Source of the DNA: Halegenticoccus soli
GTDB lineage: Archaea; Halobacteriota; Halobacteria; Halobacteriales; Haloferacaceae
Reading direction: 5' to 3'
DNA: 64,000 bases
Assembly: GCF_002844195.1 (NCBI RefSeq)
Contig: NZ_PEND01000002.1
Span: 62,001 to 126,000, forward strand
Part shown: positions 41,307-42,854 of the stretch, piece after piece
Numbering within the stretch: position 1 is the stretch's first letter
Layout: the number at the start of each line of letters is the position of its first letter
The notes under the pieces: model-generated
What the model was told of the DNA's origin: nothing
The model's input: the letters and a program-made list of their open reading frames with translations, nothing else
Database searches by the model: none
Program-made: the position numbers and the translations under genes

Positions 41307-42461
41307 TCAGAACACGTCCGGCCGAAGCCGCCCGCGCTCCTCCTCGGTCAGCCGGTACGGCGCGACCGCCTCGCTCACGTCCCCGTCCGGCCGCCGCGAC
41401 TGGTGCGTCGCCAGGAAATCCGCGATCCGCTCCGCCGCGTACTCTTTGAGCTCCCCCGTCAACAGCTCCCCGTCGCGGTACTCCCGGGCGAGCCGTTCGA
41501 CGGTCGCGTCGTCCTCCTCGAAGAAGTAAAACAGGAGCTGATAGGCGACGTCCACGTCCGGGTCGCCGCCCTTCTCGCGGTGCTCCTCGACGTCGGCGCG
41601 GCCGCCGGAGTAGGCGTACTTCATCACCTTCTCGCGGACCGCCTCCCGGTCGTCCGTGAGGAGGACGCTTGGCTCCTCGTCGGACGTGCTCATCTTCCCG
41701 CCGCCGCCGCCCAGCCGCGGGAGGAACTTCGACAGCAGCGCGCCGGGCTTCTCCACGTCGTGCCGACGCTTGCCCGCGATGTCCCGCGCCAGGCGGACGT
41801 GCGGATCCTGGTCGACGGCGATGGGGACGGTCGTCGGGTGGCGGCCGTGGACGAGCTGCGGCAGGAGGAGGTGCGTCGCCTGGATCGCCGGGTAGAAGGA
41901 CAGCCCGACGTTCGGCGGCTCGCCGTAGGTCGCCTCGACGGTCGCGGGGGTGACGTCCTTCGCGAACTCGGCGGCGAGCGGGTAGATCACGTCCGCGTCC
42001 GCGGTGTCGACGACGATGCGCGTCCGCTCCGGGTCGAAGCCGACCGCGAGCAGGTCGCGGACGTTGTCGCGCGTGGCCTCGCGTATCTCGTCGAAGGTGA
42101 GGTCCTTGGCGAAGTACTTCTCGTCGTCCGACAGCGGCACGTACACGTACGCGCCCGTCTCCTCCTGGAGCCACTTCGCGAAGTAGAAGGGGAGGATGTG
42201 GCCGAGGTGCATCGGGCCGGAGGGGCCGCGACCGGTCACGACGGAGGCCGTCCCCCCCTCGTTCGCGGCCTCGGTGAACCGGTCCACGTCGCGGCCGGCG
42301 TAGAACACCCGCCGGCGGAGCAGCGGGTGCGGCGGCTGCGGGAACCGCGAGAGCTGTTCGTCGGTCAGCGCGTCCGCGCCGAAGCGGTCGAGCAGGCGGT
42401 CGTAGTCGACCTCGCCCTCGACCGCGTACGGCGTGACGGTGAAATCCTGCGCGTGATTCAT
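41307..42461 (-). CDS. trpS: Tryptophanyl-tRNA synthetase
   Basis: The 384-residue class I synthetase has the HIGH-type signature PMHLGHILPF, the KMSTS sequence GGKMSTSDEE and archaeal-type N-terminal features (FPQPPHPLLRR). It charges tRNA-Trp. The start at 42461 lies 109 bp after the stop of a 27-codon upstream ORF that contains Trp-Arg-Trp. This arrangement may regulate expression in response to Trp supply. Confidence 0.95.
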   Translation of the reverse strand: MNHAQDFTVTPYAVEGEVDYDRLLDRFGADALTDEQLSRFPQPPHPLLRRRVFYAGRDVDRFTEAANEGGTASVVTGRGPSGPMHLGHILPFYFAKWLQEETGAYVYVPLSDDEKYFAKDLTFDEIREATRDNVRDLLAVGFDPERTRIVVDTADADVIYPLAAEFAKDVTPATVEATYGEPPNVGLSFYPAIQATHLLLPQLVHGRHPTTVPIAVDQDPHVRLARDIAGKRRHDVEKPGALLSKFLPRLGGGGGKMSTSDEEPSVLLTDDREAVREKVMKYAYSGGRADVEEHREKGGDPDVDVAYQLLFYFFEEDDATVERLAREYRDGELLTGELKEYAAERIADFLATHQSRRPDGDVSEAVAPYRLTEEERGRLRPDVF

Positions 42462-42569
42462 GTCGGTGGTTCGTGTCGGTGATTCGCGCCGACAGTTCGT
42501 GCCGGCGTCGCTCGGAAACGGTGCGAAGCGCGGAAGAACGGAGTGAGCGCCCGGACCGGCCGCGCAGGG

Positions 42570-42653
42570 TTACGCCGCGACGCGGTCGTCCGCGGGACTG
42601 TCCGCTCCCGGGAGCAGCTCCCGCCAGCGCCACGGCGTACCGGGTGCGGACAT
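42570..42653 (-). CDS. Candidate leader peptide with Trp-Arg-Trp, upstream of trpS
   Basis: A 27-codon minus-strand ORF begins MSAPGTPWRWRELLPGAD and ends at a TAA, 109 bp before the trpS ATG. Two TGG codons separated by one codon are unusual in so short an ORF. A TATA-like CTCATATCC lies about 28-34 bp before its ATG. A perfect 8-bp inverted repeat occupies the space between them. Whether it is translated, or is conserved as a leader, is not shown. Confidence 0.4.
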   Translation of the reverse strand: MSAPGTPWRWRELLPGADSPADDRVAA

Positions 42654-42654
42654 A

Positions 42655-42678
42655 GTCAGCCGGATCTACTCGGCTGAC
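42655..42678. promoter_or_regulatory. Perfect 8-bp inverted repeat in the trpS leader region
   Basis: GTCAGCCG (42655-42662) and CGGCTGAC (42671-42678) are perfectly complementary across an 8-base spacer. The repeat lies directly downstream of a TATA-like element (minus strand, about 42679-42687) and ends two bases before the leader ORF ATG, so it overlaps the probable transcription start. It could be an operator for a dimeric repressor or a 5' hairpin in the mRNA. Confidence 0.5.
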
Positions 42679-42854
42679 GGATATGAGAATTTCGCCGGCC
42701 GCGCCGCGAGAGCGGACTGTGAAAACTCGACCCGGCTCCCCGGCGGACCCGTCGCGATCTCGTCCGGTCCGCAGTGCGTCGACGGATGGACGTCGACGCC
42801 CATCGACCGTAGGCTGATCGCCCGGGACGCTCCGAGCCGTTCCCGCACGATCAC
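42679..42854. other. Intergenic region upstream of the trpS leader
   Basis: Beyond the TATA-like element at 42679-42687 no gene or clear repeat is seen up to the next stop at 42855. The sequence is of mixed composition and contains a CGACG-type direct repeat only. Confidence 0.35.

Follow-up and report, generated by a model that had tools for sequence, protein, structure and literature searches.

The trpS locus and its upstream reading frame

In the haloarchaeon Halegenticoccus soli, the gene encoding tryptophanyl-tRNA synthetase (TrpRS) is preceded by a short open reading frame with two closely spaced Trp codons, and this locus raises the question of whether the frame serves as a leader through which the ribosome controls trpS. 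The window analyzed herein is a stretch of 64,000 nucleotides (contig NZ_PEND01000002.1, positions 62,001 to 126,000 of the forward strand), and the features listed below are numbered from its first letter.

41307..42461, minus strand: trpS, tryptophanyl-tRNA synthetase (TrpRS equivalog NCBIfam NF008927, above cut-off)
42570..42653, minus strand: upstream open reading frame (uORF), leader peptide MSAPGTPWRWRELLPGADSPADDRVAA, 27 codons, with the stop codon in the P2 loop region
42624..42632, minus strand: TGGCGCTGG, two Trp codons in the P1 loop, identified from the sequence and sharing the frame of the start codon

The Trp codons (42632-42630 and 42626-42624) specify the peptide W-R-W, and 108 nt lie between the stop codon of the uORF and the ATG of trpS. 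Because a trpS1 copy is also found elsewhere in the same genome (G000:C9:113696-115375), the trpS gene of the window was assigned as a second TrpRS of the trpS2 type. As is characteristic of leader peptides, the uORF is a short frame carrying codons for the amino acid handled by the gene it would control.

Conservation and reading frame of the uORF

An earlier note on this DNA had pointed out the 27-codon frame with W-R-W ahead of trpS, and had named a lack of conservation among relatives as an outcome that would speak against its role. Comparison of 70 haloarchaeal trpS loci (69 fetched loci of Halobacteria and the window) bore out the observation, in that a uORF with at least two Trp codons was located within 400 nt upstream of trpS in 65 of them, the window included, although these loci are related and their counts do not represent independent events. 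A recognizable leader was present at 67 of the 70 loci; the exceptions include L035, for which the upstream DNA was too short, and in L031 and L032 the leader was retained with a single Trp codon each. As a background, uORFs with at least two Trp codons were found ahead of trpC and trpD at only 4 and 2 of 29 loci, respectively, and these few shared no common pattern, indicating that neither gene has a Trp leader among the loci compared.

The start codon and the Trp codons were in the same frame in all 67 leaders, with the distance between them taking nine values from 15 to 54 nt, every one of which is a multiple of 3. From the Trp codons to the next hairpin arm, by contrast, the distance was not fixed modulo 3, and the position of the stop codon shifted. 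In Halorussus, the nucleotides downstream of the Trp codons are read in another frame with the motif GGAYAGT retained, and the same motif is kept in L031, L032, and L036, in which the frame terminates just past the Trp codons. Such a frame, fixed as far as the Trp codons and free thereafter, suggests that selection preserves translation of this first part and the RNA sequence of the rest. We thus infer that the uORF is translated, and we regard the existence and conservation of the element as practically certain.

Promoter and transcription start

42680..42693, minus strand: promoter, BRE/TATA-like GAAATTCTCATATC, about 27-40 nt ahead of the uORF start codon

The TATA-like hexamer CATATC (42685-42680, minus strand) is situated about 29 nt before the ATG of the uORF. 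In the 36 non-redundant leaders, the A+T content reached a maximum of 0.78 some 25 to 30 nt ahead of the uORF start codon, compared with about 0.35 in the surroundings, and no such peak was seen ahead of trpS itself. From the position of the peak, transcription is expected to start at the uORF start codon or close to it.

Published dRNA-seq data of H. volcanii are in line with this arrangement, as they list a 23-aa uORF (pI 5.4) in a 5'UTR of 150-250 nt of HVO_A0127, annotated as tryptophan--tRNA ligase, with transcription initiating upstream of the uORF and not again at the gene (PMC4983044 Table 2). Transcription beginning downstream of the ORF, the other outcome that the earlier note had set against its proposal, is therefore not what is found for HVO_A0127. 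This entry (row 12) is most likely the Trp leader described here. The leader of H. prahovense, which is related to H. volcanii, likewise encodes 23 aa with a pI of 5.43 but differs in mass (2625 versus the published 2743). In that table, uORFs in long 5'UTRs are given by size only, and the paper contains no discussion of Trp codons, RNA structure, or conservation, nor the terms "leader peptide" and "attenuation" (PMC4983044). The uORF of this Trp-codon leader RNA for trpS has thus most likely been catalogued previously, without interpretation in the literature searched.

RNA structure of the leader

42642..42651, minus strand: P1 5' arm GTCCGCACCC (covariation z = -8.3, 0/10,000)
42600..42609, minus strand: P1 3' arm GGGAGCGGAC (covariation), with the pyrimidine tract as alternative partner (P6)
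42590..42599, minus strand: P4 5' strand AGTCCCGCGG, directly 3' of P1 (covariation z = -6.4, 0/10,000; one mismatch in the window)
42568..42578, minus strand: P2 apical hairpin region GCGGCGTAACC, with the conserved loop CNTMA
42546..42554, minus strand: P4 3' strand CCGGGCGCT (covariation)
42532..42548, minus strand: GCTC box and pyrimidine tract GCTCACTCCGTTCTTCC, conserved across leaders

The proposal of leader-peptide control made in the earlier note is strongly supported by the conservation of place, Trp codons, frame, and a promoter suited to a leaderless uORF, and by the occurrence of the same element before trpS1; what that note missed are the RNA hairpins, which constitute the main evidence. 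Hairpin P1 bears the Trp codons (UGGCGCUGG) in its loop. The long hairpin P4/P2 adjoins it with no intervening nucleotides, and GCUC and a pyrimidine tract come next. The arms of P1 change together among leaders, as in the pairs GUCCGCUCUC/GAGAGCGGAC, GUCCACUUCC/GGAAGUGGAC, and GUCCGCUGGC/GCCAGCGGAC. An alignment-free comparison of cognate with permuted partners in the 36 leaders gave z values of -8.3 for P1 and -6.4 for P4, neither of which was reached in any of 10,000 permutations, and P1 and P4/P2 also came out first when 1008 segment pairs were scanned without bias. In the seed alignment, 88.4% of the cells were paired, versus 40-45% with slid partners. The corresponding values for 87 distinct model-aligned rows were 89.7% versus 37-45% (0/500 shuffles), with two-sided changes at 16 of 24 pairs, but this alignment was fitted to the structure and is hence biased in its favor. 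For the covariance model, the seed sequences were trimmed inside the P1 loop to align the arms, and the searches were run on untrimmed DNA; the first model (R1) had the register of P4 off by two positions and that of P2 by one, which were corrected in the second (R2).

Behind the GCTC box, a pyrimidine occupied positions 10-12 in 98% of 104 leaders, and the tract was weakly U-rich, with runs of at least four T in 19 of the 104. A further candidate, P3, in which the GCTC box would pair with sequence ahead of trpS, was dropped at z = -1.2.

Proposed mechanism

Taken together, a cis-acting Trp-codon leader controlling trpS by ribosome-mediated attenuation appears to be the best explanation, and a reasonably likely one. 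That the element is a sensor of Trp read by the ribosome is rather probable, while an output at the level of transcription through P1 and P6 has a somewhat better than even chance. As in an attenuator, the Trp codons lie within a conserved hairpin (P1) that a stalled ribosome would disrupt.

According to the proposed mechanism, the mRNA would start at the uORF start codon or a few nucleotides away from it. With ample Trp-tRNA, the ribosome would pass both UGG codons and P1 would re-form behind it, leaving the pyrimidine tract after P4/P2 single-stranded and able to signal a stop, most likely by serving as a weak, U-rich target of FttA/aCPSF1, a termination factor of archaea. A shortage of charged tRNA-Trp would make the ribosome stall on UGG in the P1 loop and mask the 5' arm of P1, upon which the freed 3' arm would pair with the pyrimidine tract (P6), hiding it and allowing read-through into trpS. 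The parts of this scheme that we infer are ribosome stalling, termination, and the direction in which trpS responds. In the literature, FttA/aCPSF1 has been described to bind and cleave U-rich RNA and proposed to be kept away by a coupled ribosome, and coupling of transcription and translation has been reported in H. volcanii.

P6, which excludes P1, is supported as the competing pairing, more weakly than the hairpins themselves. The predicted energy was -10.4 kcal/mol with the real tract versus -8.0 ± 0.4 kcal/mol with shuffled ones; the comparison of cognate with non-cognate partners gave z values of up to -3.3, a figure that depends on the segment chosen among the several tried, and a single-position test was borderline (p = 0.05). 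In Halomarina-type leaders, the P1 arm and the tract have changed together. The attenuation reading is weakened by the few leaders that have lost Trp codons or stand ahead of other genes, by the scarcity of runs of at least four T (19/104), and by trpC and trpD having no Trp leader. The literature searched contained no demonstration that the leader responds to tryptophan.

Alternative explanations

The same sensor might instead act on translation. In this possible, though rather unlikely, scheme, the GCUGGC of the Trp codons would pair with a GCCAGC located at the trpS start or shortly before it (P5), hiding the start until a ribosome on UGG frees it. Between -40 and +12 relative to the start, CCAGC, often as AUGCCAGC, is present in 60 of 86 trpS2 genes versus 9% of other genes. 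The duplex between loop and start was predicted at -23.1, versus -20.2 ± 0.4 once the downstream sequence was shuffled (cognate z = -4.0), and the start of trpS was predicted to become more accessible when the Trp codons, but not other places, were masked. However, none of the 18 trpS1 genes that follow the same leader has CCAGC, and the N-terminal MPA may simply reflect the ancestry of the protein. The partner in most relatives is GCCAGC, closer to the trpS start, whereas the window holds a G-U version alone, 40 nt upstream:

42501..42506, minus strand: GCCGGC, possible weak P5 partner of GCUGGC at the Trp codons (one G-U), weak in the window

P6 with termination at the tract was favored over P5, because P6 is common to the leaders of trpS1 and trpS2. 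Under either pairing, ribosome stalling on UGG is expected to switch trpS on.

Direct binding of the leader RNA by uncharged tRNA-Trp or by TrpRS itself, as in T-box-like control or autoregulation with an incidental ORF, would account for UGG in a hairpin loop ahead of a synthetase gene, as a T-box riboswitch presents its cognate codon. This explanation seems very improbable, as the frame from start to Trp codons is maintained in 67/67 leaders across nine lengths. In a T-box, the tRNA reads the codon without translation, whereas here the Trp codons belong to a conserved translated frame, and no T-box or other family in Rfam matched the leader.

Still less credible is a functional small protein as the product of the uORF, with structure and position being secondary. 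Residues such as ADS do recur after WRW, but Halorussus reads the C-terminal half in a different frame, and the peptides of L031, L032, and L036 are cut off after the Trp codons, with the nucleotides kept.

42655..42678: 8-bp palindrome (arms 42655-42662 and 42671-42678), outside the conserved element

Finally, the earlier note had described this perfect inverted repeat, which is indeed present and lies between the TATA box and the predicted start site, as an alternative repressor site, but an operator next to a chance frame can be dismissed and was dropped, since a perfect 8-bp repeat also arose when the region was dinucleotide-shuffled (39 of 200 shuffles), none was found in the sole same-genus relative (L004/L005), and the uORF itself is conserved.

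Distribution and target genes

Matches to model R1 were obtained in 156 of 391 Halobacteria genomes, representing 51 of 87 genera. Across 247 genomes of the phylum, all 14 matches to R2 were haloarchaeal, and the 30 pattern matches in viral contigs included no leader. A trpS2 gene (E ≤ 1e-80) was identified in 136 of the 391 genomes, 128 of which have the leader. Among the 28 genomes with a leader and no trpS2, 22 were inspected, and the leader preceded trpS1 in 21 and a GNAT acetyltransferase gene in one. Sequence comparison establishes the uORF with its Trp codons and their frame, both hairpins (P1 and P4/P2), and the association with trpS genes.

In other genomes, extra copies of the leader stand ahead of a GNAT gene, as seen in two related genomes, ahead of an ABC exporter, or ahead of no recognizable gene. 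The leader architecture ahead of GNAT acetyltransferase genes was observed in two unrelated lineages (L107, 449-559; L111, 2116-2226, minus strand; L144, 1429-1544, minus strand), and the uORFs of L107 and L111 have no Trp codon. One leader with a single Trp codon stands ahead of an ABC exporter gene (L106, 2121-2240, minus strand). Orphan leaders with no trpS behind them, in L108 (425-546) and on a Haladaptatus plasmid (L074, 4001-4091), are perhaps remnants of lost trpS2 genes.

The trpS2 gene and its leader are often plasmid-borne (L105 and further loci), and in H. mediterranei they lie between an integrase gene and a transposase gene; given this location and these neighbors, trpS2 looks like an accessory, movable synthetase.

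A DNA pattern of P1 only gave about 110 matches in 94 genomes versus about 7 for the reversed control; most were the Trp leader, and the rest look like chance or repeats. Separately, GTCCGCTTG(C/T)TGAGTTGTG...AGCGGACAGT recurred in six genomes (G035, G086, G131, G167, G047, and G214), some with several copies, and probably represents mobile-element ends unrelated to the leader.

Comparison with known systems

Leader-peptide attenuation is a textbook mechanism of bacteria, with trpL of E. coli as the trp-type example. The haloarchaeal leader resembles trpL in its short ORF with tandem-like Trp codons inside the first hairpin, in the downstream hairpin followed by a U/pyrimidine tract, and, presumably, in the use of the ribosome position as the sensor. 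It differs from trpL in being archaeal, in an mRNA that probably starts at the uORF start codon, in another RNA architecture with no classical U-run terminator, and in its target, which is trpS rather than the trp operon. In Streptomyces, the auxiliary indolmycin-resistant trpRS1 is reportedly under ribosome-mediated attenuation (Vecchione and Sello 2010, as cited in PMC4787780). There, too, a second TrpRS gene lies behind a ribosome-read leader; unlike in that bacterial case, the haloarchaeal element also stands ahead of the sole or main paralogue trpS1. No case of archaeal leader-peptide attenuation with cognate codons was found in the literature searched.

A Phe leader ahead of pheS

A uORF ending in a Phe-rich run (e.g., GFGFFF) was located ahead of pheS at 17 of 28 haloarchaeal loci (L179-L206), with a TATA box positioned for a leaderless start; that of the genome studied here reads MTSEPDVATIAREPAAIGFGFFFGA (L197, from about 700). 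The 26-aa uORF listed before pheS of H. volcanii (HVO_2948) is most likely this Phe leader (PMC4983044 Table 2, row 13). Judged from these sequences, pheS is a second synthetase gene with a cognate-codon leader, independent of the Trp leader. No analogous leader was found ahead of hisS or of the tyrS gene of the window.

These observations make it likely that haloarchaea have true amino-acid-sensing leader-peptide attenuators for trpS1 and trpS2 and, separately, for pheS, in which leaderless uORFs with FttA/aCPSF1-type termination, or a start codon hidden by the Trp codons, would replace trpL-type leaders and intrinsic terminators, a class undescribed for archaea in the literature searched. 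If so, archaeal ribosomes would link the expression of a synthetase to the charging of the one corresponding tRNA, and the Trp leader would constitute a new RNA family. Since haloarchaea are genetically tractable, it would also offer a test of transcription-translation coupling and of termination by FttA/aCPSF1, and the Trp and Phe leaders together suggest such control of aromatic amino-acid synthetases in haloarchaea.

By eye, the CGGTTTC of the Phe codons in the pheS leader was found to be complementary to a downstream GAAACCG.
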